A stretch of 30,112 bases of DNA, from IMG/VR virus record IMGVR_UViG_3300044640_001030, positions 1-30,112 of that record; one strand, written 5' to 3'. Made by a program: the position numbers and the translations under genes. Under the pieces are notes generated by a model, which saw nothing but the letters and a program-made list of their open reading frames with translations, was not told where the DNA came from and made no database searches. The stretch comes from a virus. Positions 3,344 to 22,071 of this stretch are shown here, piece after piece. How positions within the stretch are numbered: position 1 is the stretch's first letter; every line of letters begins with the position of its first letter.

Positions 3344-3707
3344 TTTGAGTATCACCGGGGGCCAGTCTGAAACGATCTTCGATGTAGTCAGCAGTACCAA
3401 CTTCAAATATCACACTATTGGCCACCAAGGCTTCGATCTGATGCGGCCCAAGAGCTCCGAAGTCTGCGGTTTTGCCTTCTTCTAGAATAGCTTCCTTGGT
3501 TTCACCTGTGGCTACATCAATGTAAGTGACTCGAAACTTGCCAGCGTTGATGAACCAACTCTTGTATTTTTCTTTGTGAAATACCAAACTGGTCTTGGCT
3601 CCTGCACGATCGAACACCAAAAGTTTTCCACAGTATTTGTCGTTGTTGGCAAACACCAATTCGAATCCCCACCCTTTGTCTATCTTGCCTAATGTCTGTA
3701 AGTTCAT
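3324..3707 (-). CDS. Cupin-fold protein, sugar-isomerase-like
   Basis: A 127-residue single-domain beta-barrel. [22 protein letters not shown] (about 11-32) opens it, then [21 protein letters not shown], with a GxxHQIEAL segment (about 86-95) and [20 protein letters not shown] at the end. This is the pattern of small mannose-6-phosphate-isomerase-like and nucleotide-sugar-related cupins. One metal ligand region (FHKEKYKSW) and the HQ of the second cupin motif are present. The start ATG overlaps the clpP stop (ATGA), so the two are translationally coupled. Pairing with a GmhB-like phosphatase suggests phosphosugar handling, but the substrate cannot be read from sequence. Confidence 0.72.
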
Positions 3708-4291
3708 GGTCGTCTCTCAATTATTTTATCTACTAGGCCGTAGGCCAATGCTTCTTCTGCACTCATGAATGTGTCACGATCCATGTCACGCTCGAAGTCT
3801 TGATAGGTCTTGCCTGCGGTATTGTGTTTGACATAGAGTTTGGTTAAGATGTCTTTCATCTTGGTGATCTCTTTGTACTGTATTTCAATGTCGCTTTGCA
3901 TGCCACGAGCTCCACCTGAAGGCTGATGGATCATATGACGAGCATAGGGCAACATATGACGTTTGCCTGCTGCTCCTGCTTGTGCTAGAAAGCTGCCCAT
4001 ACTACAGGCCTGTCCCATAACATAGGTAGCAACAGGACAACGAATGAACTGCATGGTATCATAGATGCTCATACCAGCTGTGATAACACCACCCGGGCTA
4101 TTGATAAACATGCTGATCTCCTTGTCTGGATTCTCACTTTCTAAAAACAGCAATTGGGCTACAATTAGATTGGCCATATGATCTTCCACAGGACCATTCA
4201 GCATGATAATGCGCTCTTTGAGCAAACGGCTAAAAATATCATAGGCCCGCTCGCCTTTGCTTGTGGATTCAACTACCATTGGTACTAACAT
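3704..4291 (-). CDS. clpP: ClpP-family serine protease
   Basis: The protein has 195 residues, the usual length of a mature Clp[11 protein letters not shown] is followed by GQACSMGSF with nucleophile Ser97, then HMIHQPSGG with His122, and [22 protein letters not shown] carries the acidic residue region. All three catalytic elements are intact. ClpP forms a double heptamer that degrades substrates fed by AAA+ unfoldases (ClpX or ClpA); a phage copy could use host unfoldases or mature phage proteins. ATG 4291 is chosen because AAAGGAAA lies just upstream; a TTG at 4309 is less likely. It is driven by a consensus sigma70 promoter at 4316-4344 and begins an operon with the cupin and HAD genes. Confidence 0.93.
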
Positions 4292-4999: not shown

Positions 5000-6313
5000 G
5001 TGAGAACACAGCCCGAAACAATCATTGCCAAACTTGAAGCAGACAACAGCCGTTTGGCCAAAGAAGCTGTTCTTGCAGAAGCAATGACAGAAGGCCTAGA
5101 CGAATTCTTTGAAGGAGTTCGCTGGTGCTTGGACAAACTGCATACCTTTGGTGTCAAGCAGGTTCCAGAGAGCGACACAGACGGGCAAGGCCTGAGCTGG
5201 ACCAACTTCTCAGAATTGGCAGATGCTCTGTATCGCAGAACACTCACAGGACACGCCGCACGTGATGCTATTAAATTGGCCATGGATGTGGCTACCAAAG
5301 CACAATGGAATGGGTTCTATCGTAGGATCCTTATCAAAGATCTTCGCTGTGGTGTTTCAGAAAAGACTGTGAACACCGTGGCTAAAAAGAGCAAGAAGCC
5401 TGAATATGCTGTGCCTGTATTTGAATGCATGCTGGCACATGATGGCGCCAACCACGAAGGCAAGATCACAGGCAAGAAACTGGTTGAGCCCAAGCTGGAT
5501 GGTGTGCGTGTGTTGACTGTGGTAGACTACGAAAGCCGTATGGTTACCATGTACACTCGCAATGGCAAAGAACTGGTCAACTTTCCGCACATTGTCAAGG
5601 CCTTTGAAGACAACATGGACAATTGGGGCCGTAGTTATGTGTTTGATGGTGAAGTAGTTAGCTCTAGCTTCCAGGCCCTGATGAAAGAAGTGCATCGCAA
5701 GGAAAACGTACAGGCACAGGATGCTCGACTCATGCTGTTTGATATCGTGCCTTTGACTGAGTTCAAAGCAGGAGCCAGTGTAATGGGCCAGAAGCGCCGC
5801 AGTGCATTCCTACGTGAGAACTTTTCCAAACTGTTTGCAGACTCAGGTTGCATTGATATTATTGTACAACGAGAGTTTGATCTAGATGTGTTCACAGATG
5901 AAATCGAGTTCAAAGACTACAACAAGCAGGCTGTGGCTGAGGGATTTGAGGGCATTATGATCAAAGATCCCAACGGCAAGTGGGAAGGCAAGCGAAGCGT
6001 GGCTTGGCTCAAACAAAAGCCTTTTATTGAAGTCAGCCTTGCTGTGATTGAAACAGAAGAAGGCACAGGCCGTAATGTAGGCAAGATGGGTGCTTTGGTC
6101 TGTGAGGGCACAGAAGACGGCAAGCTGATCAAAGTAAACGTGGGCTCTGGCTTTACGGACAAGGACCGTGACGAGTTTTGGCAGTGTAAGGTAGACGGAC
6201 AGGTGATTGAAGTCAGAGCAGATGCTATCACACAGAATCAAGACGGCACCTACAGTCTACGCTTTCCACGCTTTATGCGATTCCGTGGCTTCAAAGCAGG
6301 AGAAAAGATTTGA
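5000..6313 (+). CDS. ATP-dependent DNA ligase
   Basis: 437 residues; seals nicks by adenylating a lysine, transferring AMP to the 5' phosphate and joining. The N-terminal helical part (1-140) contains LRCGVSEKTVN. The nucleotidyltransferase motifs are VEPKLDGVRV with Lys165 as the AMP-accepting residue (motif I), YVFDGEVV (III), AEGFEGIMIKDP (IV) and SVAWLKQKP (V). An OB-fold follows, with GRNVGKMGALVCEG and IKVNVGSGF, ending LRFPRFMRFRG. The length and motif order fit phage replication and repair ligases. The GTG start is supported by AGGAG. It is followed by a chain of small overlapping genes; the first begins at TTG 6310 overlapping the ligase stop. Confidence 0.95.
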   Translation: MRTQPETIIAKLEADNSRLAKEAVLAEAMTEGLDEFFEGVRWCLDKLHTFGVKQVPESDTDGQGLSWTNFSELADALYRRTLTGHAARDAIKLAMDVATKAQWNGFYRRILIKDLRCGVSEKTVNTVAKKSKKPEYAVPVFECMLAHDGANHEGKITGKKLVEPKLDGVRVLTVVDYESRMVTMYTRNGKELVNFPHIVKAFEDNMDNWGRSYVFDGEVVSSSFQALMKEVHRKENVQAQDARLMLFDIVPLTEFKAGASVMGQKRRSAFLRENFSKLFADSGCIDIIVQREFDLDVFTDEIEFKDYNKQAVAEGFEGIMIKDPNGKWEGKRSVAWLKQKPFIEVSLAVIETEEGTGRNVGKMGALVCEGTEDGKLIKVNVGSGFTDKDRDEFWQCKVDGQVIEVRADAITQNQDGTYSLRFPRFMRFRGFKAGEKI

Positions 6314-6495
6314 ACTTGCTAGAACTTAAACAACAGGCTGGCATACAAGATAATCCGGATCAAGAAGGCCTAGACTTGTTCGCCGATTTGATTGTGCAGG
6401 AATGCGGTGTAGCATTGAGTCCTATGTTGCGTGATATGATCAGCCGTGGGCGGGCTGTGGAGTTGATTAAGAAACATTTTGGAGTTGAACTATGA
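6310..6495 (+). CDS. Small phage family protein (copy 1 of 3)
   Basis: 61 residues beginning at TTG 6310, which overlaps the ligase stop. The pattern LKQQAG, LDLFADLIVQEC, then a C-terminal LIKKHFGVE is shared with the proteins at 6709 and 6945: a short helix ending in QAG, a central FA[DE]LI[IV][QK]EC helix and an IKxxFGVE tail. I know this layout as very common in environmental tailed phages but with no assigned function. Its end reads GTT GAA CTA TGA and overlaps the next start. Copy 1 is shorter in the middle than copies 2 and 3. Confidence 0.7.
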   Translation: MNLLELKQQAGIQDNPDQEGLDLFADLIVQECGVALSPMLRDMISRGRAVELIKKHFGVEL

Positions 6496-6611
6496 CACAG
6501 AACGATTTGGTATTACTAATGTGTCTAGCAATTGGATGGCTACAGGGTCTGTATATTGGATGGTTACTGTGGCGTAGACCACAATTGAAATATCACGGAG
6601 TTGAAGAATGA
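6492..6611 (+). CDS. Small membrane protein, 39 residues
   Basis: The ATG overlaps the previous stop (ATGA). One hydrophobic segment (LVLLMCLAIGWLQGLYIGWLLW, about 6-27) is followed by basic residues (RRPQLKYH) and the tail GVEE. The tail is encoded GGA GTT GAA GAA TGA, the same junction sequence found after the family proteins, and supplies a GGAG ribosome-binding site for the next gene. Predicted inner-membrane protein of unknown role. Confidence 0.6.
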   Translation: MTQNDLVLLMCLAIGWLQGLYIGWLLWRRPQLKYHGVEE

Positions 6612-6712
6612 AATGGCCCACTGCAAGACTCTATTGCCCAAACTGCTTTGATCGCTTTAGTCGCATACGAATACTAGGCCTATGGTATTCAAAACATAAG
6701 TGCTCTCTATGA
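6608..6712 (+). CDS. Small CxxC protein, 34 residues
   Basis: Starts in an ATGA overlap with GGAG 10 nt upstream. The sequence MKWPTARLYCPNCFDRFSRI carries a CPNC knuckle, with a further Cys near the end (KHKCSL), suggesting a minimal zinc ribbon or a degraded one. The stop overlaps the start of the next family gene at 6709. Function unknown. Confidence 0.55.
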   Translation: MKWPTARLYCPNCFDRFSRIRILGLWYSKHKCSL

Positions 6713-6948
6713 ACGAACGAATTCGACAACTTTGGTCACAGGCTGGTGGTCATTATGATAGTGGCAATCAGCACACTTGGCCACAATATACGATTGACGA
6801 TCCTAAAAAGTTCGCCGAGTTGATAATTCAGGAATGTTTTCAGGCGTGTATGAACGAAGGGGCATCATACGAAGAAAAAGCAGCGGGAGCGTATCAAAGC
6901 AATTTATATGTTACTGCGATTAAAAAACATTTCGGAGTTGAAGAATGA
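6709..6948 (+). CDS. Small phage family protein (copy 2 of 3)
   Basis: 79 residues from an ATG overlapping the previous stop. It shows MNERIRQLWSQAGG at the start, KKFAELIIQECFQAC in the middle and AIKKHFGVEE at the end. It is the paralogue of the proteins at 6310 and 6945, and the variable segments between the conserved blocks differ greatly. The final codons GGA GTT GAA GAA TGA double as the ribosome-binding site and start overlap for the next copy. Confidence 0.72.
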   Translation: MNERIRQLWSQAGGHYDSGNQHTWPQYTIDDPKKFAELIIQECFQACMNEGASYEEKAAGAYQSNLYVTAIKKHFGVEE

Positions 6949-7199
6949 ACGAAGAGCGATTTAGAGAACTTGCTAGACAGGCTGGTGTATTAATCGATTG
7001 GGGCGAGGATATAAAGGTAGGTAGATGGGGCATTGGTGGGAACTACAAGAATATGCAAAAGTTCGCCGAGTTGATTGTAAAAGAATGTATGGCGTGTTCT
7101 ACTTGGGTTGGCAAGAACAATACTAATACTGTTGAACCAATACACACTGCTCACGCTATCAATCAGCGTATCAAACAACAGTTTGGAGTTGAAGAATGA
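6945..7199 (+). CDS. Small phage family protein (copy 3 of 3)
   Basis: 84 residues, MNEERFRELARQAGVLIDW, MQKFAELIVKECMACS and RIKQQFGVEE. It has the same architecture as copies 1 and 2 and the same terminal GGAGTTGAAGAATGA junction into the oxygenase-like gene. The tandem array indicates local duplication. No enzymatic motif is visible. Confidence 0.72.
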   Translation: MNEERFRELARQAGVLIDWGEDIKVGRWGIGGNYKNMQKFAELIVKECMACSTWVGKNNTNTVEPIHTAHAINQRIKQQFGVEE

Positions 7200-7744
7200 A
7201 AGATAAGCTGGTGTTTGACACTACACGTCTAATTAACACATACATATTAGAAAACGCTGATGCAGTCAACGCTGCTCTAATTGATCTAATACGAACCCAG
7301 GGCGATAGACAGGGCAGGAAAACTAATATTAAAGCAGACATGACCGAATGGCTCTTGCCCATTGATCATCAACAGCCCCCATACAATCAATTCTTTGATT
7401 TGCTGCGTGTTGGTGTAGTGGACAGTATTACTAAGTTACTTAACCCTATTGATTACAGTCGCCAGCCGCCCTATTCGTATTCAATTAATTCGTTATGGGG
7501 TGCTATCTATCACACTGGCGATCATGCTAATCTGCATAATCACTTTGCATCGGCATTTAGTTTTTGTTATTATTTAAAGATGAATGATCCGCCCACGCCC
7601 TTGCAGTTTAAATCCATTGATCACAGCATTACTCCTACAGAAGGCATGCTAATCATATTTCCAGGGTGGTTGGATCACGGGGTGCCCGAGTGCGTGTCCC
7701 AAGACGAGCGAATTGTCTTGGCCGGTAATATAGAAATACACTAG
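7196..7744 (+). CDS. 2OG-Fe(II) oxygenase-like protein
   Basis: 182 residues. The C-terminal half fits a double-stranded beta-helix: SLWGAIYHTGDHANLHNHFASAFSFCYYL supplies histidines for the first metal site, and LIIFPGWLDHGVPECVSQDERIVLAGNIEIH supplies the distal His and an Arg after it. This matches the phage family related to TIGR02466 / 2OG-FeII_Oxy_5, where FPxxLxHxV...R.x.xxNI is diagnostic. The expected substrate would be a protein, nucleotide or small molecule; it cannot be inferred. The start is coupled to the upstream family gene by ATGA with GGAG. Confidence 0.72.
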   Translation: MKDKLVFDTTRLINTYILENADAVNAALIDLIRTQGDRQGRKTNIKADMTEWLLPIDHQQPPYNQFFDLLRVGVVDSITKLLNPIDYSRQPPYSYSINSLWGAIYHTGDHANLHNHFASAFSFCYYLKMNDPPTPLQFKSIDHSITPTEGMLIIFPGWLDHGVPECVSQDERIVLAGNIEIH

Positions 7745-8992: not shown

Positions 8993-9270
8993 ACAATGAA
9001 CTAGATCAATTAGATGTCAGCAACAGCGAAGAGGGAGAACAGGCCCAGGCCATTGCCCTCATACGTGAAGCACAGGCCCTGGACTCAGTGCGTCAAAAGC
9101 TGGCCCTGCAACGCAGCCAACCCAGTCTGGAATTCTGTGATGCATGTGGGGAAGATATTCCTCTGGCACGTAGAGAAGCTGTGCCGGGTGTGACCATGTG
9201 TATCTATTGCCAAAGCAAATCAGAACGATTCACAGCCAGCTATCGACAGCCTGGTGCGAGCTCAGAGTAA
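8989..9270 (+). CDS. DksA/TraR-type zinc-finger protein
   Basis: 93 residues. The C-terminal part CDACGEDIPLARREAVPGVT followed by MCIYCQ is a C4 zinc finger of the DksA/TraR family, including the GxxIPxxRxxAxPxxxxCxxC signature. The N-terminal helix (AQAIALIREAQALDSVRQKLA) would form the short coiled coil. TraR-like proteins bind the RNA polymerase secondary channel and change promoter choice without ppGpp, so this may retune host transcription during infection (inference). Its end overlaps the convergent AlgH-like gene by 41 bp. Confidence 0.85.
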   Translation: MNNELDQLDVSNSEEGEQAQAIALIREAQALDSVRQKLALQRSQPSLEFCDACGEDIPLARREAVPGVTMCIYCQSKSERFTASYRQPGASSE

Positions 9271-9781
9271 CCACGTTAGACCATAGTTCGTCCACGGGCT
9301 GTTCAAACAGCCATTCAGGGCCTAGGTTTTGGGCAGTCAACCATGAATGTTCCTGACGCCATACCCCCTGACCCTCAATCTCCTGATCCAACTGACCCGG
9401 TGCCCATGCTGCATAGCCCATGAGCAGTCTAAAATGGCGTGGCGTATCGTGGTCCATCATGCAATGAAACATTTCCAGTGAGCTGGTCATGGCCCAGGCC
9501 GATGTGATCATCACAGTGTCACTGCAGACCCAGTCTGAGCTGTGCAGCATCCATATGCTGTGATGGCCCATGGGTCCACCCCAGTACACAGGCACAGGGG
9601 GTAGCCCACTGTGATCTATGTTGGTCTGGGCTAGTATTTCTTCCAGGGTGTAGTCCAAGGGTCTATTCACACACAGTCCGTGAGCTCCTCGTTCGTCGCT
9701 GTGGGTCAGCATGAGCACTGAGTTTTTAAATCGCGTGTCGGGAATGGTTGGGGGTGCTATGAGCAGATCTGTGGGATTCAC
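9230..9781 (-). CDS. AlgH/YqgE-family protein (DUF179)
   Basis: About 183 residues from GTG 9781. The start MNPTDLLIAPPTIPDTRFKN parallels the opening of E. coli YqgE, followed by GAHGLCVNRPL, VPVYWGGPMG, WMLHSSDW, MITSAWAMTSSLEMF, LLMGYAAWAPGQLDQEI and LFEQPVDELW. The length matches the family. The cellular role is undefined; YqgE sits beside the Holliday-junction resolvase gene yqgF in bacteria, and AlgH was linked to alginate regulation. Another GTG (9787) is 5 nt after GGAG and is an alternative start. Phage carriage is unusual. Confidence 0.83.
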   Translation of the reverse strand: MNPTDLLIAPPTIPDTRFKNSVLMLTHSDERGAHGLCVNRPLDYTLEEILAQTNIDHSGLPPVPVYWGGPMGHHSIWMLHSSDWVCSDTVMITSAWAMTSSLEMFHCMMDHDTPRHFRLLMGYAAWAPGQLDQEIEGQGVWRQEHSWLTAQNLGPEWLFEQPVDELWSNVVTLSSHQAVDSWL

Positions 9782-9788
9782 GGCCACT

Positions 9789-10913
9789 TCAACTCCAATC
9801 AGGTAAAGGTCCGCCGTATTTTTTACCTTTGATCTTCTTGCCGCGGACGCCGATTCTATCTGCACCCACCTTGTGAGTCTTACCGCCATCACGGCTGCGA
9901 TAGCCCTGCGACTTGCAAGATGCCAACTGCGATGCACCTAGAGCTGAGTCCGGCTTGCCTGATGTACAAAGAGCTCTTGAAGCGGGCTCTTCATCTACCA
10001 TTGATTGAGCCTTGCTCCAATTCAATGTTTTACCATTTGCTAATATTGCACGAATAGGACCATCTATCATTTTGGCCTGTTGAATCTTGGCATCAGGAAA
10101 CTTGGCTTTAACTAGACGTAACCACTCTCGTTGTGTGCGTCCTTTTGAATCTGTTGCACCGCCCATGCTTTCTGTTGCTGGCGCATACTTACCACCTGCT
10201 TTGGCATTCCTAGCGTCATCAGCAGCCAGTATCTCAGCAGCACTTGACCCAGCTGGTAGGCCCACTGTGGTGGCAATAACGTCTAGCAGGGCCTGATTCT
10301 TGCCTATGGTGGGCTGTGCCAACATGATAGCGATCGGGCTCTTGTTGGCCTTGGCAGCAGCCTGTCCACCCGCAGCATCTGGGTTTGGAGCAGCAGCAGG
10401 TGCAGCCTTGGGAGCTAGTTTCACCGGAGCATTGTCAGCCTGTGCGCCCCCAGCATCTATGTTGGCCATATTCTGTTTGTACTGTGCAGCAGCATCAGGA
10501 TCGTTCTTGTCCAAGTGAGCCTGTTGTGCTGCCTGTACTTGTTCTTGACTAGACCCTGGGGGTAATCCAAAGCGTTTGCCCATGCGGTCCAGCATGCGTT
10601 GTTCTGCACCTTCGGGTCCTTGCACAGCTTCTGTGAATCCTGTGTCCTGGGTGCTGATGCCTAGGATGTCATCGTTGAGGGGAAAGTTCAGCCCTTGAAA
10701 GCGTTCTGGCAGTTGTTGTGTGTCTATGATAAACTCCAGCTCTTCTGATGAAGGATGTTCTTTCATCAAGACCTGTGCAGCAGCATCGTGTGCTTCTGCG
10801 TTTGACCATATGTCCACATCATAGTGTTCTTGATATAGACTAGCAACTGCGTCCATGACCAATCTATAGTCACAGGTGAATATGTTTTCTGTGACGATTT
10901 CACTTATTTTCAT
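9789..10913 (-). CDS. Ala-rich probable virion-associated protein
   Basis: 374 residues. The N-terminal part (MKISEIVTENIFTCDYRLVM) is followed by acidic helices, then an Ala/Pro-rich linker (about 160-195, APKAAPAAAPNPDAAGGQAA). A motif occurs twice: GLPPGSSQEQVQAAQQAHLD (about 115-134) and GLPAGSSAAEILAADDARNA (about 218-237). The C-terminal 60 residues are basic (CTSGKPDSALGASQLASCKS, then RGKKIKGKKYGGPLPDWS), of a type I associate with DUF5872-like domains. A low-complexity linker plus basic tail suggests a DNA-contacting or scaffold-like role, but this is inference. Overlaps the upstream gene by ATGA. Confidence 0.65.
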   Translation of the reverse strand: MKISEIVTENIFTCDYRLVMDAVASLYQEHYDVDIWSNAEAHDAAAQVLMKEHPSSEELEFIIDTQQLPERFQGLNFPLNDDILGISTQDTGFTEAVQGPEGAEQRMLDRMGKRFGLPPGSSQEQVQAAQQAHLDKNDPDAAAQYKQNMANIDAGGAQADNAPVKLAPKAAPAAAPNPDAAGGQAAAKANKSPIAIMLAQPTIGKNQALLDVIATTVGLPAGSSAAEILAADDARNAKAGGKYAPATESMGGATDSKGRTQREWLRLVKAKFPDAKIQQAKMIDGPIRAILANGKTLNWSKAQSMVDEEPASRALCTSGKPDSALGASQLASCKSQGYRSRDGGKTHKVGADRIGVRGKKIKGKKYGGPLPDWS

Positions 10914-13045: not shown

Positions 13046-13074
13046 TTGACAAGATATCAAATCTATCGTATAAT
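13046..13074 (+). promoter_or_regulatory. Sigma70 promoter before BPSL0761-like gene and tRNAs
   Basis: Perfect TTGACA and TATAAT with a 17-bp spacer. An ATG (13081) follows exactly 6 nt after the -10 box. The transcript probably also carries the two tRNAs, which have no promoter of their own. Confidence 0.85.
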
Positions 13075-13146
13075 ATACACATGCAGAAGAAAAGAATCTT
13101 ATCTGCCAGCCGTGAACCCAATATGCAGCTACCTCTGAGGAGACCT

Positions 13147-13440
13147 ATGACATTACCTGATGAAAGATATCGTGCTGTTGTGCAGACCCGGAGGTTCTTG
13201 ATGGATCTCTGTAACTCACAGCACACTCCCCGAGTACCAAAATTGATTCGAGACACAGCCCGTAGTATGCTGCGTCACTATCCCTCAGACTGGGACATGA
13301 ACCGTGCAGCTGAAGGTGCACCAGAGGTGTTCCAGGAACGCATGGAGGATCTTCACCGTTTCGTAGCTACAGGAGTTCGTGCCACAGCTGACAACGAAGC
13401 TGCAGAGCTGAATTCACTCCAGGGATACAAGGACATGTAA
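13147..13440 (+). CDS. BPSL0761-family-like protein
   Basis: 97 residues from ATG 13147, which has GAGGAG 5-6 nt upstream. MTLPDERYRAVVQTRRFLMD, then VPKLIRDTARSMLRHYPSDW, resembles the BPSL0761 family I know from Burkholderia-type bacteria: a TxPDERxRAVxQTRxFLxxL start and an R..AxxLLRHYP core. The function of that family is unknown. The frame is open back to ATG 13081, exactly 6 nt after the -10 box, so a leaderless 119-residue form is possible. The family start supports 13147. Confidence 0.75.
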   Translation: MTLPDERYRAVVQTRRFLMDLCNSQHTPRVPKLIRDTARSMLRHYPSDWDMNRAAEGAPEVFQERMEDLHRFVATGVRATADNEAAELNSLQGYKDM

Positions 13441-13448
13441 CAAGTTTC

Positions 13449-13526
13449 GGGCCCCTAGCTCATGTTGGTTAGAGCAGTGGACTCATAATCCATTGGTGCC
13501 GTGTTCGACTCACGGGGGGCCCACCA
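13449..13526 (+). tRNA. tRNA with CAT anticodon (Met or lysidine-type Ile2)
   Basis: Acceptor GGGCCCC pairs perfectly with GGGGCCC, then A and an encoded CCA. D arm GCTC/GAGC; anticodon arm GTGGA-CTCATAA-TCCAT (anticodon CAT); T arm CCGTG-TTCGACT-CACGG. Bases such as the GC-rich acceptor resemble E. coli Ile2 more than elongator Met. Phages often carry Ile2 to read AUA, but identity depends on lysidine modification and is not settled here. Confidence 0.92.
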
Positions 13527-13543
13527 CCACAGTGTAACAGCAG

Positions 13544-13620
13544 CAGCCCTTAGCTCAGTTGGATAGAGCAACAGCCTTCTAAGCTGTAGGCCACTGGTTC
13601 GAATCCAGTAGGGCTGGCCA
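13544..13620 (+). tRNA. tRNA-Arg (TCT)
   Basis: Acceptor CAGCCCT pairs with AGGGCTG, discriminator G and encoded CCA. The anticodon arm is ACAGC-CTTCTAA-GCTGT (anticodon TCT, reading AGA), and the T arm ACTGG-TTCGAAT-CCAGT. It closely follows the layout of E. coli argU. Encoded CCA and placement 17 bp after the first tRNA suggest processing from one transcript. Confidence 0.95.
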
Positions 13621-13781
13621 TCACCGCAGCATGCAGCAGCACAGGGACTTCACAGTGTACAAGCAGCCCAATCCCATGGACCCGTGGGATCCATTCAGAC
13701 GTTGGTGCGCTGTGGCCCCTGCAGCGTGTGGCTGTGCTGCTGTGCTGTGATCGTGTGCGCAGCTGTCAAGTGGATCACCAT

Positions 13782-13800
13782 CTAGCATGCAGCATGCTAG
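13782..13800. repeat. Perfect palindrome CTAGCATGC-A-GCATGCTAG
   Basis: Two 9-bp arms around a single A. It could be a protein-binding site or an RNA hairpin terminating the tRNA transcript; no U-run follows. Confidence 0.6.
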
Positions 13801-13831
13801 AGAGGGGCTGAGAGCGCGAGAATCCTGAGAA

Positions 13832-13855
13832 ACCCAGGGCCCTCTAGGGTCTTTT
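13832..13855 (+). terminator. Terminator-like hairpin
   Basis: ACCC and AGGGT flank GGGCCCTCT, followed by CTTTT. It belongs to a recurring short type here (ACCCT...AGGGTYTTT) also seen at 14371, 23235 and 27986. Confidence 0.45.
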
Positions 13856-13864
13856 CCCATTTGG

Positions 13865-13893
13865 TTGACACTTTGGGTCTAAGCTGCTATAAT
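13865..13893 (+). promoter_or_regulatory. Sigma70 promoter
   Basis: Perfect TTGACA and TATAAT with a 17-bp spacer, upstream of the gene at 13915. Confidence 0.85.
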
Positions 13894-13914
13894 ACGTTTT
13901 TAACAAGGAAACAC

Positions 13915-14094
13915 ATGTCAAGACATCATTTAGTAGTATTTGCAAACTATTGCAGAGACACAGGCTTTACGCTTGTAGAGGCCCTCAAGTACGTGGGAGA
14001 CAATTTAGAGACAGACGCAGTTAGCGATGACGTTGCGTATGCGTATGAGAGCACCTACGAGGAGCTTATGCAGTTTGTAGAGACCCAGCGCTGA
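13915..14094 (+). CDS. Small acidic phage protein, 59 residues
   Basis: MSRHHLVVFANYCRDTGFTL then VEALKYVGDNLETDAVSDDV; helical and acidic overall. The start is placed by AAGGAAA 5-6 nt upstream and by the promoter at 13865; the frame upstream of it overlaps the promoter. Single-gene unit. Not recognised. Confidence 0.72.
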   Translation: MSRHHLVVFANYCRDTGFTLVEALKYVGDNLETDAVSDDVAYAYESTYEELMQFVETQR

Positions 14095-14116
14095 TCAGGG
14101 TCATTGTGCAGCACAC

Positions 14117-14145
14117 TTGACATTTTGGCGAGTGTGTGCTATAAT
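14117..14145 (+). promoter_or_regulatory. Sigma70 promoter
   Basis: Perfect TTGACA and TATAAT, 17-bp spacer. The leader carries GGAGCGAA (14166-14173). Confidence 0.85.
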
Positions 14146-14177
14146 ACATTTTTAAACACGCAATAGGAGCGAAAACT

Positions 14178-14363
14178 ATGCAAACAATGTACGTGCTGCA
14201 AGCGCAGGGGCTGGGGGACAACGAATACGAGTTTTACAACGTAGGGGTATACGATAGCACTGCCAATTTGGAACGTGCTAAACAAAAGTTTACACAGGAG
14301 TGGGCTGAGGGCGGGCTTGAGGACGTAGTACTTAACGTTGAGGAATACCTAGTTAACGCATAA
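14178..14363 (+). CDS. Small acidic phage protein, 61 residues
   Basis: MQTMYVLQAQGLGDNEYEFY then NVGVYDSTANLERAKQKFTQ and EWAEGG. The pattern (YVLQ... YEFYNVGVYDS... AKQKF..EW) suggests a small alpha/beta protein of a type I have seen in T4-like phages without function. Its own promoter, a GGAGCGAA site and a terminator hairpin just after it make it a complete single-gene unit. Confidence 0.75.
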   Translation: MQTMYVLQAQGLGDNEYEFYNVGVYDSTANLERAKQKFTQEWAEGGLEDVVLNVEEYLVNA

Positions 14364-14370
14364 CCCTGCA

Positions 14371-14386
14371 GCCCCTAGGGGCTTTT
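14371..14386 (+). terminator. Intrinsic terminator
   Basis: GCCC-CTAG-GGGC (or GCCCC/GGGGC) followed by TTTT, directly after the gene ending at 14363. Confidence 0.6.
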
Positions 14387-14395
14387 GCGCAGCAG

Positions 14396-14424
14396 TTGAC
14401 ACTTTGGTGAACCTGTGCTATAAT
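14396..14424 (+). promoter_or_regulatory. Sigma70 promoter
   Basis: Perfect TTGACA and TATAAT, 17-bp spacer; the leader contains AAAGGAGCG. Confidence 0.85.
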
Positions 14425-14451
14425 ACACACTTAGCAACAAAGGAGCGCGAG

Positions 14452-14574
14452 ATGGCATTTAACTACAGCAAGTACTACGCAACACTGTTCCGCAAGAGGG
14501 GCTACACACTAATTAACGGTGTGTGGTACTACGACGCGGCGGGCCAGTACCCAGTTTACAACACAGCAAGTTAA
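14452..14574 (+). CDS. Tyr-rich 40-residue protein
   Basis: MAFNYSKYYATLFRKRGYTL then INGVWYYDAAGQYPVYNTAS. Eight of 40 residues are Tyr. Strong promoter and AAGGAGCG support the very short frame. The second gene of this unit starts 9 bp downstream. Function unknown. Confidence 0.68.
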   Translation: MAFNYSKYYATLFRKRGYTLINGVWYYDAAGQYPVYNTAS

Positions 14575-14583
14575 GGACGCATC

Positions 14584-14922
14584 ATGTACAAAGTTAACGC
14601 AACACTAAACACAAACGGCAAGGGCTACTGGAGCAGCACTGCTAAGGCAGTAGAGGTCACAGGTCTGCAACTTGCATACACAAACGATGAGCTGAGCTTT
14701 GGCGAGCTGCGTGTGCGCTTTACAGCAGCAACGTGGGACACAGCTAAACACGGTCTTATATACACAGACAAGCTGTTTATGACAGAGCTTAAAGCACTGC
14801 TTACAACTATGGGCTTTGATAGCAGCGATGTCAGCTACAGCGAGCAGGGCATGCAGGGAGACACCTACGTGAGCTGCGATGTGGGGGAACTGTTTATTAA
14901 TACGTACATGCAGAACGCATGA
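14584..14922 (+). CDS. Conserved phage hypothetical protein, 112 residues
   Basis: MYKVNATLNTNGKGYWSSTA, then ELSFGELRVRFTAATWDTAKHGLIYTDKLF and SCDVGELFINTYM. A mixed alpha/beta protein without recognisable catalytic residues. Follows the 40-residue gene with AAGGA upstream, so the two form a two-gene unit ended by a hairpin at 14924. Confidence 0.72.
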   Translation: MYKVNATLNTNGKGYWSSTAKAVEVTGLQLAYTNDELSFGELRVRFTAATWDTAKHGLIYTDKLFMTELKALLTTMGFDSSDVSYSEQGMQGDTYVSCDVGELFINTYMQNA

Positions 14923-14923
14923 C

Positions 14924-14947
14924 CCTAAGGCCCGTAAGGGCTTTAGG
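14924..14947 (+). terminator. Hairpin with GTAA tetraloop
   Basis: CCTAAGGCCC-GTAA-GGGCTTTAGG: ten pairs including one G-U, closed by a GNRA loop. No U-run follows, so termination may be weak; it may instead protect the mRNA end. The -35 box of the next promoter lies 7 bp downstream. Confidence 0.55.
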
Positions 14948-14953
14948 ATTCGG

Positions 14954-14982
14954 TTGACAGATTGGAATTTTGGTGCTATAAT
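14954..14982 (+). promoter_or_regulatory. Sigma70 promoter, leaderless configuration
   Basis: Perfect TTGACA and TATAAT, 17-bp spacer. ATACAC separates the -10 from ATG 14989, placing the ATG at the expected transcription start. Confidence 0.85.
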
Positions 14983-14988
14983 ATACAC

Positions 14989-15327
14989 ATGAACTTAGAA
15001 AAGCCCACCCGTAAAAAGCGAGTCGACCGTACGCACATCATCTATGAGTTGCGTGTCAACGGTGCTAGCTACATAGGAGTCACTGCCAAAACAGAGACAA
15101 CTATTAACAAGTCAGTGCTGGCTCGTGCGGCCAAGCACTTCTATCGTGCCAAGAAAGAGAACAAGGACTGGCTGCTTTGCCGGGCCCTGCGCTCTTTGAA
15201 CGACAAGAGCGAGATAGAAGTACTAGTTCATGAGACCCTGCGTGGCAAAGCGGCTGCACACAAGCGGGAAGTAGAACTACGGCGTACACTGCGCCCAGAG
15301 CTGAACACAGACTGCAGGGGCGATTAA
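14989..15327 (+). CDS. GIY-YIG-type nuclease
   Basis: 112 residues. IIYELRVNGASYIGVTA (about 15-31) is the variant GIY...YIG pair. RAAKHFYRA follows with the Arg/His positions, then ALRSLNDKSEIEVLVHETL, and HKREVELRRTLRPELNTD supplies the metal-binding Glu and the Asn that end the fold. Such enzymes act as homing or DNA-processing nucleases in T4-like phages. A basic N-terminal tail (KPTRKKR) may bind DNA. The start at ATG 14989 has no Shine-Dalgarno and lies at the predicted transcription start. The target is unknown. Confidence 0.8.
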   Translation: MNLEKPTRKKRVDRTHIIYELRVNGASYIGVTAKTETTINKSVLARAAKHFYRAKKENKDWLLCRALRSLNDKSEIEVLVHETLRGKAAAHKREVELRRTLRPELNTDCRGD

Positions 15328-15334
15328 ACAGGGG

Positions 15335-15363
15335 TTGACAGCCCTGCGGTTTGGTGCTATAAT
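15335..15363 (+). promoter_or_regulatory. Sigma70 promoter with dyad around -35
   Basis: Perfect TTGACA and TATAAT, 17-bp spacer. CAGGG (15329-15333) and CCCTG (15342-15346) flank the -35 box symmetrically. The leader has GGAGCGAA at 15384. Confidence 0.85.
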
Positions 15364-15393
15364 ATACACTTACACACACAGAAGGAGCGAAAA

Positions 15394-15747
15394 ATGGAAC
15401 AAGCACAGCGTGAGTATTTTGTTAACCGTTTAAACGAGATTGCCCGAGAGAAAGTACAAGCCAAAGCAGAGGCACTGTTTGGCCCTACTGGCCGTCCTGA
15501 ACAGCCTACATGGGGCATGGTGTTTGAAGGCATTGCCAGCGGCGAGATTACACTGAAAGAAGAAAAGCGGGACTACACTGGCCCCTACTTGAACCCTTCT
15601 GATGTTGTGTGGCCTGCTATGGAAGCAAAGGTCGCAGAGCTGGAAGCCTACCGTGCCACAGTTGCACGTGAGAAGCAGACGGCAATGGATCGTTGTATGC
15701 TGGACACAGACGCACAACAAGCCCTTACAGAGTTCCAGGGTATTTAA
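15394..15747 (+). CDS. Hypothetical phage protein, 117 residues
   Basis: MEQAQREYFVNRLNEIAREK then VQAKAEALFGPTG, followed by GMVFEGIASGEITLKEEKRD and a long helix (MEAKVAELEAYRATVAREKQ). Mostly helical, probably oligomeric; the centre holds a Pro/Tyr segment. AGGAGCGAA precedes the ATG. I recall similar phage proteins with the LFG...PTWG region but no function. Confidence 0.75.
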   Translation: MEQAQREYFVNRLNEIAREKVQAKAEALFGPTGRPEQPTWGMVFEGIASGEITLKEEKRDYTGPYLNPSDVVWPAMEAKVAELEAYRATVAREKQTAMDRCMLDTDAQQALTEFQGI

Positions 15748-15755
15748 AGTATTGG

Positions 15756-15784
15756 TTGACACGGGCTCCGGCCCGTGTTATAAT
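15756..15784 (+). promoter_or_regulatory. Sigma70 promoter with 8-bp dyad in spacer
   Basis: Perfect hexamers, 17-bp spacer. ACACGGGC-TCCG-GCCCGTGT (15759-15778) runs from the end of the -35 box to the -10 edge. A repressor or activator site is likely, or a hairpin ending the upstream transcript. Confidence 0.85.
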
Positions 15785-15818
15785 ACACACTTACACAAAC
15801 AAATAAGGAGCGAAACTT

Positions 15819-16247
15819 ATGGGTACACGATCAAGAGTAGCAGTCATGCATGGCGATGTCTGCAAGAGCGTCTATTGCCACTATGATGGCTATTTGGACT
15901 ACACAGGTCGCATCCTGTTGGCCCACTACGATTCCACAGCAGCTAATCAGCTGATCGCACGTGGGGACAACAGTGGCGTCAAAGAGACACTGGAAGAAAT
16001 GAACTTCTACGAAGATCGTGAAGCCCAGGGTGAGGATGTTAATGAGTTCCTGCAGAGCACTCCGTGGTCAGTTGCACACTCATTCGAAGAGTTCCTCGAG
16101 CAGGTCCAGGGCTGCTGTGGCGAGTACTACTACGTGATGCGAGACGGTGTATGGTATGCGGGTGCAGTCTACGACACAGACGGTCTGGTAAAGAACGGAC
16201 TTGTGGCCCTTAAAGATGCACTAGAAGCCCTTCCAGTTGAAGGGTAA
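15819..16247 (+). CDS. Conserved phage protein, MGTRS family
   Basis: 142 residues starting MGTRSRVAVMHGDVCKSVYC, then HYDGYLDYTGRILLAHYD. I recognise this as a widespread phage and bacterial family whose members begin MGTRSxIA and continue with VYCHWDGYxxxxGxxLxxHY. Its function is undefined. Later segments (EEFLEQVQGCCGEYYYVMRD, then GVWYAGAVY) fit the same family. GGAGCGAA lies 5 nt before the ATG. Confidence 0.82.
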   Translation: MGTRSRVAVMHGDVCKSVYCHYDGYLDYTGRILLAHYDSTAANQLIARGDNSGVKETLEEMNFYEDREAQGEDVNEFLQSTPWSVAHSFEEFLEQVQGCCGEYYYVMRDGVWYAGAVYDTDGLVKNGLVALKDALEALPVEG

Positions 16248-16258
16248 TTAATTAGGGG

Positions 16259-16287
16259 TTGACAAACTCCCTAATTGAGCATATAAT
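16259..16287 (+). promoter_or_regulatory. Sigma70 promoter with 8-bp dyad around -35
   Basis: Perfect hexamers, 17-bp spacer. AATTAGGG (16250-16257) and CCCTAATT (16269-16276) enclose the -35 box. The leader has GGAGCGAA at 16313. Confidence 0.85.
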
Positions 16288-16324
16288 AGACACTATGTTA
16301 ACAACACACACAGGAGCGAAAACT

Positions 16325-17428
16325 ATGCGTATTACACTAGCACAAGGTCAGTACGGTGCCAAAAGCAATCAGATCTACCCAGGCATTGAACTGGATATGG
16401 TAGGGGACTTTGTCACCGAAGCCAGCAATGGTTGGGAAGGCTACATCAAGGCCCGTTCAGGCTACAACATCAAGGGTGGCGGCGAGACCTGTAAGGTACG
16501 ATGCAACCAAAGTGATGTTCAAGCAATTGCAGGAGCTCCAGCAGGGGTTACAATGTTGCAGGCCCTTGCCAAGCCCACCAAGGCTGGCAAGAACGATGCT
16601 ACTGTTACAGACTTCACACAGGTCAAAGTGCCAGACTCTGCTGTCGCAGACGAAACTGATGAGCAGATCATCGAGCGTACACGACTGCGCTTTGAGATCC
16701 TCAAGGATATGACCAAAGCAGTGAAAACTGGTGACGTTCGTGCTATGATTGTCACAGGCCCTCCAGGTGTAGGCAAGAGCTTTGGTGTTGAAGAAGTACT
16801 TGCCAAAGATGACCTGTTTGATATGATGGGCCAGCGCAAGCCCAAGTATGAGATTGTCAAAGGTGCTATGTCAGCAATTGGACTCTACTCCAAACTGTAC
16901 AAGTTCAGCGATCCCAAGAACATTGTTGTGTTCGATGACTGTGACTCAATCCTTTTGGACGACGTTGCACTCAACATTCTCAAGGCCGCTTTGGACACTT
17001 CAAAGAAGCGTACTATTTCGTGGAACACTGACAGCCGTGTGCTACGCTCAGAAGGAGTGCCTGACAAGTTTGATTTCAAGGGTGGTGCTATCTTTATCAC
17101 CAACTTGAAGTTTGAGAATGTGCGTAGCAAGAAGCTTCAAGAGCACTTGGCGGCACTAGAGTCACGCTGTCACTTCATTGACCTGCGTATGGACACAGAC
17201 CGTGAGAAGGTTCTGCGTATCAAGCAGATCGTCAAAGATGGTATGTTGGATTCATACGAGCTTGAGGAAACGGCTAAAGATGAGATCGTTAATTTCATCC
17301 TTGAGAACCGTAGCCATATGCGAGAGCTGAGCCTGCGTACTGTTTTGAAGTGTGCAGACTTGAAGAAGAGCTTCCCTGCTAACTGGCAGAATATGGCTCG
17401 TGTAACTGTTATGAAGGGTATGGCATGA
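16325..17428 (+). CDS. AAA-family ATPase
   Basis: 367 residues. An N-terminal accessory region (1-80) contains MRITLAQGQYGAKSNQIYPG, like a small beta domain. The P-loop is GPPGVGKS at 145-152, and Walker B is VVFDDCDSILLDD near 200-211. Sensor-1-like IFITNL and an Arg-rich region (LESRCHFIDLRM) follow, with a helical lid. Strong promoter plus GGAGCGAA leader suggest high early expression. The substrate is unknown; remodelling of a DNA or protein complex is inferred from the fold. The start at 16325 is chosen because the longer frame would run through the promoter. The stop overlaps the next gene. Confidence 0.88.
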   Translation: MRITLAQGQYGAKSNQIYPGIELDMVGDFVTEASNGWEGYIKARSGYNIKGGGETCKVRCNQSDVQAIAGAPAGVTMLQALAKPTKAGKNDATVTDFTQVKVPDSAVADETDEQIIERTRLRFEILKDMTKAVKTGDVRAMIVTGPPGVGKSFGVEEVLAKDDLFDMMGQRKPKYEIVKGAMSAIGLYSKLYKFSDPKNIVVFDDCDSILLDDVALNILKAALDTSKKRTISWNTDSRVLRSEGVPDKFDFKGGAIFITNLKFENVRSKKLQEHLAALESRCHFIDLRMDTDREKVLRIKQIVKDGMLDSYELEETAKDEIVNFILENRSHMRELSLRTVLKCADLKKSFPANWQNMARVTVMKGMA

Positions 17429-17670
17429 TAGATACAGGATTGGGCTCAGCCAAAGAGTGCCAGTACATCGGGTCAGAGCAGATCAAGTGGCCTTTCAAGA
17501 TGTGCGGGCAGAAGAGCATAGCAGGCAAGAGCTACTGTGCAGAGCACTACCATCAGATGTACAAGAAGGGATCCAGCAACACGGGTGCCAAGAAGATGGA
17601 GAAGTTGATTGATAGAGAACTAGCTGATTTGAAACGGCTACAAGAAATCGAGGAGATTGATAATGTTTGA
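17425..17670 (+). CDS. Small zinc-binding protein with GcrA-like motif
   Basis: 81 residues. CQYIGSEQIKWPFKMCGQKS then IAGKSYCAEHYHQMYKKGSS resembles the C-terminal motif of the alphaproteobacterial cell-cycle regulator GcrA (C..(P/K)..FHFCGxPxxxGKxYCxxHxxxxY). The N-terminal HTH of GcrA is missing, and a coiled-coil tail (MEKLIDRELADLKRLQEIEE) replaces it. It could be a zinc-bound RNA-polymerase or DNA contact module. Overlaps the ATPase stop by ATGA, so it is translated with it. Confidence 0.65.
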   Translation: MIDTGLGSAKECQYIGSEQIKWPFKMCGQKSIAGKSYCAEHYHQMYKKGSSNTGAKKMEKLIDRELADLKRLQEIEEIDNV

Positions 17671-17863
17671 TACTATGTTAAAATTGGTCCTGGCCATAGC
17701 CGTGGTTGTGGTGTTGATCGCCATTGGCCCCTGGCTGGTGATCTGGAGTCTGAACACACTGTTCCCTGTACTGGCCATTGAGTTCACGTTTTGGACTTGG
17801 GGTGCTGTGGTGATCATGGGCACGTTCTTTCGAGCAAATGTTTCCGTTAAACGGAAGGATTGA
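17663..17863 (+). CDS. Membrane protein, 66 residues
   Basis: MFDTMLKLVLAIAVVVVLIA, then IGPWLVIWSLNTLFPVLAIE and FTFWTWGAVVIMGTFF. Two or three hydrophobic segments fill nearly the entire protein, with a basic C-terminal tail (RANVSVKRKD). ATG 17663 has GAGGAG upstream and overlaps the previous gene by 8 bp. Near the end the DNA contains TTCCGTT-A-AACGGAA, a 7-bp inverted repeat. A holin-like role is possible but unsupported. Confidence 0.68.
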   Translation: MFDTMLKLVLAIAVVVVLIAIGPWLVIWSLNTLFPVLAIEFTFWTWGAVVIMGTFFRANVSVKRKD

Positions 17864-17865
17864 GG

Positions 17866-17894
17866 TTGCATTGCTGAGCAGCAGGTGTTATTAT
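17866..17894 (+). promoter_or_regulatory. Sigma70 promoter (weaker boxes)
   Basis: TTGCAT, 17 bp, TATTAT; an overlapping TATAAT 3 bp downstream would need a 20-bp spacer. Drives the gene at 17941. Confidence 0.55.
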
Positions 17895-17940
17895 AATAAG
17901 ACGCTGTTAAAGAACAGCCTACAACAAAGGAAACTTAAAA

Positions 17941-18213
17941 ATGAAGAGATTCAATCCAGAAACCAAGACTTTCAAAGTCTTCACAGCACTCTACAACGGT
18001 GCAGCCTTGACAGCATCCAAAGCCAAGCATGACTTGGGCGTTGGCAACTTGAGCGCAGAAGTTAGCCGCATCAAGCAGAACGGTTATGCTGTTTACAGCA
18101 ACACCCGCAAGGCAGGCAACGGTGTCACAGTCACAGAATACGTGATGGGTCAACCAAGCCGCGAAATCGTTGCTCTAGGCTACAAAGCCAAAGCAATGGG
18201 CATCACTCTGTAA
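17941..18213 (+). CDS. Putative winged-helix DNA-binding protein
   Basis: 90 residues, MKRFNPETKTFKVFTALYNG then AALTASKAKHDLGVGNLSAE and VSRIKQNGYAVYSN. The LTASKAKHDLGVGNLSAEVSRIKQNGYAV stretch reads as helix-turn-helix plus wing. The tail EYVMGQPSREIVALGYKAK is of a kind I recall in T4-like phages. A small basic protein with a complete transcription unit and a strong terminator suggests high expression. The leader has AAGGAAA, not the GGAGCGAA type. The 3' UTR carries the conserved motif at 18235-18249. Confidence 0.72.
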   Translation: MKRFNPETKTFKVFTALYNGAALTASKAKHDLGVGNLSAEVSRIKQNGYAVYSNTRKAGNGVTVTEYVMGQPSREIVALGYKAKAMGITL

Positions 18214-18234
18214 TAGAGTTTCCACAAAGACAAG

Positions 18235-18249
18235 CCGATTCGCTCCCGG
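18235..18249 (+). repeat. CCGATTCGCTCCCGG motif, copy A
   Basis: An exact 15-base match to 25472-25486. Both lie between a stop codon and an intrinsic terminator. Confidence 0.8.
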
Positions 18250-18261
18250 GGCGTCTTTTGG

Positions 18262-18290
18262 GGCTGTTGTAGAAATACAACAGCCTTTTT
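18262..18290 (+). terminator. Strong intrinsic terminator
   Basis: GGCTGTTGTA-GAAA-TACAACAGCC: ten perfect pairs with a GAAA loop, then TTTTT. Confidence 0.92.
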
Positions 18291-18297
18291 CTTTTGG

Positions 18298-18326
18298 TTG
18301 ACACTTCGGTATAACGACAGTATACT
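18298..18326 (+). promoter_or_regulatory. Sigma70 promoter
   Basis: TTGACA, 17 bp, TATACT, before the HNH gene at 18350. Confidence 0.8.
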
Positions 18327-18349
18327 AGCTCTAACTTAACAGGGAGAGC

Positions 18350-18745
18350 ATGATGACAACTTTAGAATTTAGACCCAAGTGTATCAATCATGGTTGCACC
18401 AAGCCTGTAACCTATAGTCACAAAGATGAGCAAGGCAACAAACGCTGGAGAATTCATTGCGGGCATTGCCAAGGAGCCAGCTATGGACGGCATGCTCATG
18501 CTCCTGGGGTAACGCCATTCAAGACTGGCCGCTGCTCTAACAGTGATAGTCATTTAGGGTTTGCCTGTGCTATTAACTACAAGAAAGCTCCTTGGGCAAT
18601 AGGCATGACAGAGATAGATCACAAGAATGGTAACTGCAATGACAACCGTGTTAAGAACTTAGATGAGCTGTGCCCAATGTGCCATAAACGCAAAGGTCGC
18701 CTAGCAGGAGATCACAATGGGTGGAAGAACTATCGTGTGGCGTAA
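18350..18745 (+). CDS. HNH endonuclease (second, small type)
   Basis: 131 residues. A CINHGC...CGHC zinc-ribbon-like N-terminal part (about 10-40) is followed by GMTEIDHKNGNCNDNRVKNL and DELCPMCHKRKGRLAGDHNG. The DH, N and H positions of the HNH motif are present, with the CPMC pair coordinating zinc. It resembles free-standing homing endonucleases. It is unrelated in detail to the HNH protein at 4411. GGGAG precedes two ATGs (18350, 18353); the second has the better spacing. The stop codon lies in the loop of a hairpin. Confidence 0.83.
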   Translation: MMTTLEFRPKCINHGCTKPVTYSHKDEQGNKRWRIHCGHCQGASYGRHAHAPGVTPFKTGRCSNSDSHLGFACAINYKKAPWAIGMTEIDHKNGNCNDNRVKNLDELCPMCHKRKGRLAGDHNGWKNYRVA

Positions 18746-18754
18746 TTGCCACAC
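18735..18754 (+). terminator. Hairpin over the HNH stop codon
   Basis: GTGTGGC-GTAATT-GCCACAC, seven perfect pairs with the TAA stop in the loop. No U-run. Possibly an mRNA-end structure. Confidence 0.5.
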
Positions 18755-18768
18755 CGGCCGGCACTCCA

Positions 18769-18803
18769 AACCGGTTGACAGATTGGATACATAGTGTTAT
18801 AAT
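18769..18803 (+). promoter_or_regulatory. Sigma70 promoter with AACCGGTT over -35
   Basis: The palindrome AACCGGTT (18769-18776) shares its last two bases with TTGACA (18775-18780). 17-bp spacer, TATAAT 18798-18803. The leader contains an in-frame ATG at 18810, 6 nt after the -10, then GGAGCGA. Confidence 0.85.
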
Positions 18804-18830
18804 ACACACATGAACAAGCAAGGAGCGACA

Positions 18831-19463: not shown

Positions 19464-19488
19464 CAGCAAAGCGATTTGGTGTTATACT
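19460..19488 (+). promoter_or_regulatory. Sigma70 promoter for MoxR gene
   Basis: TTGACA, 17 bp, TATACT. The -35 contains the stop codon of the upstream gene. The 50-nt leader holds TTAACCGGTAA, close to the AACCGGTT boxes, and AAAGAGG instead of GGAGCGAA. Confidence 0.82.
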
Positions 19489-19539
19489 TATGATACTGAG
19501 AAAGTAATTGTTTAACCGGTAACTTAAAGAGGTCTTAAA

Positions 19540-20625: not shown

Positions 20626-20640
20626 GACCTCGCCATAGCA

Positions 20641-20681
20641 GGGGCGGAGAGCTTCTCAGAGCTTGTCCGCCCACCTTTTTT
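20641..20681 (+). terminator. Intrinsic terminator of MoxR gene
   Basis: GGGCGGA pairs with TCCGCCC across an inner GAGCTT/AGAGCTT region, then ACC and TTTTTT. Confidence 0.82.
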
Positions 20682-20683
20682 GG

Positions 20684-20712
20684 TTGACAGATGTGTAAAA
20701 CGATGCTATAAT
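20684..20712 (+). promoter_or_regulatory. Sigma70 promoter for VWA gene
   Basis: Perfect hexamers, 17-bp spacer; begins 2 bp after the terminator U-run. Confidence 0.87.
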
Positions 20713-20737
20713 ATACACATACTAAGGAGAGCGACAT

Positions 20738-21949: not shown

Positions 21950-21955
21950 GTGCCA

Positions 21956-21984
21956 GGGGTTGTGGCTTTTTAGCCACAGGCCCC
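21956..21984 (+). terminator. Hairpin ending in repeat GGCCCCGCTGC
   Basis: TGTGGCT-TTTT-AGCCACA (seven perfect pairs), extended outward by GGGG/CCCC. The right arm merges with the fourth copy of GGCCCCGCTGC (21979-21989). No U-run after it. Confidence 0.6.
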
Positions 21985-22013
21985 GCTGCTTACGTGTGCG
22001 TGTAATCTAGGTA

Positions 22014-22042: not shown

Positions 22043-22071
22043 ATACACATATTAACAAAGAAGGAGCGGCA

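Follow-up and report, generated by a model that had tools for sequence, protein, structure and literature searches.

Neighbouring small genes of one virus record end in the same four residues, Gly-Val-Glu-Glu (GVEE), and in the same nucleotides, which raises the question of whether such a tail is conserved for the protein or for the DNA beneath it. The window analyzed here is the 30,112-nucleotide stretch covering positions 1 to 30,112 of IMG/VR record IMGVR_UViG_3300044640_001030. An initial annotation, made from the letters alone, proposed that the GVEE codons act as the next gene's ribosome-binding site, that a junction cassette spreads between small genes, and that the residues may reflect translation coupling rather than protein function. 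We consider it likely that the element is a portable junction that doubles as ribosome-binding site, tail codons, and gene-exchange seam.

Junctions and overlaps in the window and in the family

The features concerned, in order along the window, are as follows.

6299..6312, plus strand: 3' end of the ligase gene, GGAGAAAAGAT-TTG; its tail reads GEKI-stop, and GGAG precedes the TTG start codon (6310) by 7 nt
6310..6495, plus strand: family gene 1, MNLLELKQQAG..FADLIVQEC..IKKHFGVEL-stop, a profile HMM match
6376..6392, plus strand: diverged copy of the core seam, with 3 mismatches, within family gene 1
6481..6495, plus strand: junction copy GGAGTTGAACTATGA, 2 mismatches to the 15-mer GGAGTTGAAGAATGA; start at 6492
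6492..6611, plus strand: small membrane protein MTQND..KYHGVEE-stop, unrelated to the family
6597..6611, plus strand: exact junction GGAGTTGAAGAATGA; start at 6608
6608..6712, plus strand: 34-residue ORF MKWPTARLYCPNCF.. (MKWPTARLY..KCSL-stop), with an ATGA overlap at its end that lacks GGAG
6709..6948, plus strand: family gene 2, MNERIRQLWSQAGG..KFAELIIQEC..IKKHFGVEE-stop, structure modelled
6808..6825, plus strand: copy of the core seam, AAGTTCGCCGAGTTGATa, within family gene 2, all 17 searched bases matching
6934..6948, plus strand: exact junction; start at 6945
6945..7199, plus strand: family gene 3, MNEERFRELARQAG..KFAELIVKEC..IKQQFGVEE-stop
7059..7076, plus strand: copy of the core seam, AAGTTCGCCGAGTTGATt, within family gene 3, all 17 searched bases matching
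7185..7199, plus strand: exact junction; start at 7196
7196..7744, plus strand: downstream gene, a putative 2OG-Fe(II) oxygenase (PHROG 81, Pfam PF13759)
9787..9796, minus strand: GGAGTTGAAG, read ..DWS-stop by the upstream gene (9789-10913, minus strand); the AlgH-like gene may begin at a GTG that follows GGAG by 5 nt

The three exact copies are located where they had been reported, closing the genes that end at 6611, 6948, and 7199; the gene that ends at 6495 closes with a fourth copy. Allowing up to 3 mismatches to the 15-mer, six matches were found in the window vs a shuffle mean of 0.80, and none of 100 shuffles reached six. The tail codons are indeed placed so that they could set up the next start, with GGAG exactly 7 nt before 6492, 6608, 6945, and 7196; counting 6310, this holds for five of the six starts in 6310-7196, start 6709 having no GGAG upstream. 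All overlaps across 6492-7199 are 4-nt ATGA overlaps. Start 6310 is a TTG whose GGAG comes from the ligase tail GEKI and not from GVEE, and the geometry is thus common even where the residues differ. The membrane protein had been said to carry the family's tail: it shares GVEE and is otherwise unrelated, but its ending is KYHGVEE, so that FGVEE is not common to both. Recurrence of the motif in another frame near 9787 was also found, the upstream gene on the minus strand reading TGG AGT TGA; this single exact 10-mer could have originated by convergence.

The same record encodes tRNA-Met (13449-13526) and tRNA-Arg (13544-13620), a ClpP-like protease (3704-4282, minus strand), and the AlgH-like (DUF179) protein (9230-9799, minus strand). 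There are also 19 TATAATACACAC-like repeats in the window (up to 2 mismatches; 2.6 expected), most of them within 13069-28045 and mainly on the plus strand, which look like a recurring phage promoter.

Family genes 1 to 3 represent a family of proteins of about 60-100 residues with the pattern MNERI..FAELIVREC..IKKHFGVEE. Five IMG/VR scans, one genome scan, and the window together gave 324 loci (4.77 Mb; contigs are fragments, with genes called by simple ORF rules) and 861 unique members; the member profiles leave the tail out, whereas the first loci came from patterns that included it. All 25 large records examined carried the family, at 1 to 17 copies per record. The exact 15-mer was present in 79 copies in 20 of these records, five family-carrying records being without one, and a reversed control pattern gave 0. 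Among 28 members tested, no Pfam family was matched and only two PHROG families were, by one member each. The best PDB match had an E value of 0.11, and three members tested against INPHARED (50,697 phage records) gave no match. Fold comparison gave nothing significant in the PDB, and the top viral matches were phage proteins without a name (E about 1e-3). None of the papers listed in literature searches describes the junction or the family, as judged by titles and the beginnings of abstracts. In locus L104, a gene ending near 10000, in an open frame that spans 330 residues between stops, also closes with KKHFGVEE and is unmatched by the family profile.

An overlap with the next gene is present in 684 of the 861 members, as ATGA in 588, TAATG in 64, GTGA in 26, and TAGTG in 6. 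The tail ends FGVEE before ATGA, FGVE before TAATG, and FGVES before GTGA; its length and last residue vary with the type of overlap such that GGAG is held 7 nt from the start, exactly so in 504 of the 684 coupled junctions (439/588 ATGA, 43/64 TAATG, 18/26 GTGA, and 4/6 TAGTG). The proposal that these codons act as a ribosome-binding site was therefore supported by their placement, at the expected Shine-Dalgarno (SD) position across all four overlap types. GGAG is the probable ribosome-binding site of the next gene, and with stop and start overlapping, a ribosome that has finished the first gene would already be in position to begin the next one, from which we infer coupled translation. The unpaired probability of the SD site was similar in cassette and other junctions, with no clear signal of SD masking.

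To compare, the 684 coupled members were set against 34 strict terminal copies, the other 143 of 861 (other start positions, edges, and doubtful cases) being excluded. GGAG in the last 21 nt fell from 568/684 coupled to 12/34 terminal copies (p=3e-9). Codon use was counted in rows with a clear short FG tail, 615 coupled and 23 terminal: the tail glycine codon was GGA in 584/615 coupled copies vs 773/3011 (25.7%) elsewhere in the same genes, and still in 17/23 terminal copies (p=2e-6 against that background), the other six using codons such as GGT or GGG. The codons thus outlast coupling, which indicates that coupling is not the sole force acting on them.

Breakpoints at the gene ends and inside family genes

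Pairs of cassette junctions with upstream DNA at least 80% identical had unrelated downstream DNA in 111 of 115 cases, vs 36/138 (no SD) and 50/83 (other SD) in comparison pairs that were not both family, pair counts here and below not being independent. Within-family pairs had unrelated downstream DNA at 107/111 cassette vs 9/18 other-SD junctions. For the converse, shared downstream and unrelated upstream DNA, the counts were 51/55 at cassette junctions vs 23/110 (no SD) and 15/39 (other SD). Identity was lost within two codons after the ATG in the former pairs, and was gained at or just before GGAG in the converse pairs. Since many swaps were seen in the mixed pairs too, shuffling extends beyond the exact cassette. 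As read from these comparisons, the junctions appear to be recombination seams, a point that is new relative to the initial annotation. A junction sequence common to many genes may provide such a seam for the exchange of small genes, possibly through homologous or microhomology recombination.

A second DNA-conserved seam, AAGTTCGCCGAGTTGATT, lies inside the family genes, away from any start, and has GAGTTGA in common with the junction. As at the tail, codon use is strongly skewed there, at KFAELI (AAG 88% vs 28.5%, GCC 81% vs 21.5%, GAG 86% vs 19%, and TTG 86% vs 24%), and also at MNERI (AAC 87% vs 38% and CGA 89% vs 24.5%). When front halves were at least 70% alike, the back halves were unrelated in 602 of 691 pairs, and back-half pairs had unrelated front halves in 296 of 375; 3451 control genes split at their midpoints gave 6/430 and 10/488 mismatched halves. 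At AAGTTCGCCGAGTTGATT the DNA identity drops abruptly, from about 0.9 to about 0.3. In 635 members, 445 front and 478 back modules formed 612 combinations; of the modules that recur, 84 of 94 at the back and 81 of 90 at the front have at least two partners. The window gene at 6709-6948 has a 60-nt front identical in two loci whose back halves are unrelated. Front and back halves are evidently free to reassort at AAGTTCGCCGAGTTGATT, the internal seam presumably being the site at which they are joined. With no start codon at the core seam, the conservation of the DNA cannot be put down to coupling alone, and in view of the similar codon bias there, translation may not account for all of the conservation seen at the junction.

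These results bear on a reading in which both seams, at the junction and in the core, are conserved chiefly as sites for recombination or for a DNA-binding protein, with ribosome binding being secondary. It is favored by the junction-like codon bias of a seam that is not at a start, by the breakpoints at both seams, by the GGA retained in terminal copies, and by a RecA-family gene in 17 of 25 large records (a RecT-type recombinase was found in 0/25). However, the junction adjusts to the type of overlap and keeps its SD at 7 nt, none of which a recombination site needs, and GGAG declines in the terminal copies as given above; we therefore think this reading rather unlikely as the main account.

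Tails of terminal copies and junctions on unrelated genes

Whether GVEE is instead kept for protein function, for instance as a C-terminal interaction motif, with the SD-like sequence a by-product, can be judged from the residues of the terminal copies. The tail patterns used in cataloguing members favor FG, and the statements on residues rest on separate tail counts. A GVEE end was found in 3/34 terminal vs 302/684 coupled copies (p=2e-5; median p 8e-5 with one copy per locus). An ending of FG plus a large hydrophobic residue (V, I, L, and in one case Y) was kept in 24/34 terminal vs 625/684 coupled copies, in some with other glycine codons, which indicates a constraint at the protein level. 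Valine followed FG in 16/26 terminal vs 570/638 coupled copies, I or L replacing V more often in the terminal ones. In the structure model of family gene 2 (mean pLDDT 85), the last helix, 60-75, stops exactly at F75, directly before G76, as a helix cap would. Protein function as the whole explanation is nevertheless improbable in view of the GVEE counts, and because the same DNA occurs in other frames (RS-stop, SELKN..), after stop codons, and on unrelated proteins.

The comparison of terminal with coupled tails that had been suggested as a check therefore gave a mixed answer, and the contrast drawn with protein function goes too far as worded. In favor of translation coupling rather than protein function, GVEE is largely lost in terminal copies, and the GGA codons and final glutamate follow the junction; against it, FG-hydrophobic endings and GGA codons remain. 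Readings based on protein function only or coupling only each fail part of this comparison. The terminal-copy counts, together with the helix end at F75, point to a tail that is double-coded, for protein and for junction: the GGA codons and final E appear to be mostly a junction-level feature, whereas the FG-hydrophobic element, which would end the helix, looks like a protein-level one. Three loci (L154, L159, and L160) have terminal FGVE-stop copies followed by the same ccctacaggttgacaggtct, possibly a promoter-bearing unit behind the array.

The proposed spread of the cassette between small genes was borne out beyond the window. Across the 324 loci, 362 unique places carry an exact copy of the 14-mer GGAGTTGAAGAATG. 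Family genes account for 294 in frame 0 (GVEE end) and 8 in frame 1, with 2 further weak family matches; non-family genes account for 34 in frame 0, 9 in frame 1, and 7 assigned to frame 2, frames of non-family sites being set by the longest ORF and at least 2 of the 7 frame-2 assignments being wrong (homologues place L047:9798 in frame 0, and L055:5280 reads QGRS-stop). At 8 places there was no upstream ORF of 35 residues. In total, 60 of the 362 places, in 52 loci, were without a detected upstream family gene; there, unrelated genes end in GVEE, in RS or WS, or in SELKN.., or the 14-mer follows a stop. Two proteins that are 59% identical have swapped tails, ELDLYKKAFGVEE vs ELQLYQKAFKL, and a protein in L055 with the same EEWVPTKEL motif ends ELDLYKETFRS, the same DNA in another frame. 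The same protein may end in LFEVEKHFGVEE or LFEVEQ, another in YCLFGHHFGVEE or YCLFGKQVGL, and the MPFHKCK protein has three different tails. The window's membrane protein had eight matches, with seven other close copies (L004 has the window's own version); all eight have the tail KYHGV plus two residues, and they precede at least six kinds of downstream gene. Coincidence as the origin of this tail was rejected because relatives bear the same junction ahead of different downstream genes. A pair of small membrane proteins homologous to each other, at L107:5607-5709 and L108:10627-10714, differs by an indel near the end (WQKELGLEE vs WQKN before the stop), and the downstream start region GGATTAGAAGAATGAACG is kept despite it.

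Convergent optimization, in which phages favor GGAG-N7-ATG and the same spacer arises independently, would accommodate some of these data: GGAG 6 to 7 nt before ATG is the top GGAG geometry in non-family genes (474 + 449 of 1420), and tails such as LGEIE and IGVKE, like the window ligase tail, retain GGAG with different spacers. The spacer itself is what makes this account quite improbable. TTGAAGA was found in 110 of the 449 GGAG-N7-ATG sites before non-family genes vs 0.34 expected, about 300 times above position-specific composition, many such sites following family genes, and the junction with TTGAAGA had a raw count of 571 vs a mean of 0.32 and a maximum of 6 for 100 anagram spacers. CATTTC, moreover, often travels upstream with the junction, including in other frames. 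Generic SD convergence is thus weak against the spacer excess and the anagram counts, and pure chance as the source of the copies is ruled out by the shuffles, the composition expectation, and the anagram spacers. Common descent only, with tandem duplicates whose ends change slowly and a mosaic that is similarity lost in the middle, fits the start MNERI, core KFAELIV, and end HFGVEE in all members, but it is very improbable given the junction on non-family genes and halves of about 90% identical DNA whose partner halves show background identity (about 0.28), the change falling abruptly at the seam. It is in fact contradicted by 18 N-half and 13 C-half pairs that are 100% identical over 60 nt with the other half unrelated.

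The portable junction remains our preferred reading. The GVEE codons would be one reading of a DNA junction, CATTTC-GGAGTTGAAGA-ATGA, which unrelated genes may pick up by exchange in whichever frame they meet it. A short junction appears to have been copied between unrelated genes, and the conserved-looking tail would then be partly a by-product of the junction and of gene swapping there.

Relation to known systems and meaning

SD motifs within the upstream gene at overlaps have been described as constraining the upstream C-terminus (Huber et al. 2019, PMC6728339), and SD-dependent termination-reinitiation at overlapping genes is also treated by Brown and Wade (2025, PMC12548453). The junction resembles the SD-dependent coupling of these accounts in its ATGA or TAATG overlap and in the SD motif inside the upstream 3' end; it shares the overlap and SD spacing features of that class, with coupling itself a probable consequence here. 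Unlike the single gene pairs and genome-wide fractions that those reports present in the parts cited, one fixed sequence is found here on unrelated genes, in several frames, and at swap breakpoints.

The Start-Associated Sequences of Cluster K mycobacteriophages have an AGGAG core just upstream of many starts in different gene families; their conservation is said to exceed the SD need, and the authors raise a use in homologous recombination (PMC3203893). As described there, they are a 13-bp consensus, GGGATAGGAGCCC, mostly in gaps of >50 bp, whereas the junction lies inside the upstream coding region with a 4-nt or 1-nt overlap. The window contains one 2-mismatch match to GGGATAGGAGCCC, which is at chance level (at least one in 38 of 100 shuffles). 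Mosaic phage genomes have been proposed to arise by homologous recombination at short conserved boundary sequences between genes (PMC3233612). The junction is like these boundaries in being a short conserved sequence at module borders where similarity breaks (from about 0.9 to background within a few codons), and unlike them, in that account, in being also a ribosome-binding site and C-terminal codons, with a second boundary within the gene. In T4-type phages, the PeSL cassettes (Arbiol 2010; Comeau 2014, as cited in PMC4503421) are mobile regulatory elements, said to mediate gene shuffling, that consist of an early promoter and a stem-loop terminator; the 6250-7300 region around the junctions had 0 terminator-like sites and no excess of promoters. 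SD-bearing overlaps and boundary recombination are thus already known, and one junction across unrelated genes together with a second, intragenic seam is what appears to be new.

Tentatively, we suggest a possible combinatorial small-protein system in large uncultivated phages, in which two-module gene arrays have their modules and gene order reshuffled at two seams and recombinants are translated at once; such shuffling may be of benefit, the seams would be selected as seams, and GVEE would be their protein shadow. The locus offers a clean case of conserved C-terminal residues that would be mistaken for a protein motif, and the frame-shifted copies serve as natural controls. The long-standing question of whether conserved boundary sequences create the mosaic borders of phages, or selection only sorts those borders, becomes testable as well: hundreds of junction copies, in a small-protein family without a Pfam or PHROG model of its own, combine breakpoints, the shared sequence, and a likely role in translation.
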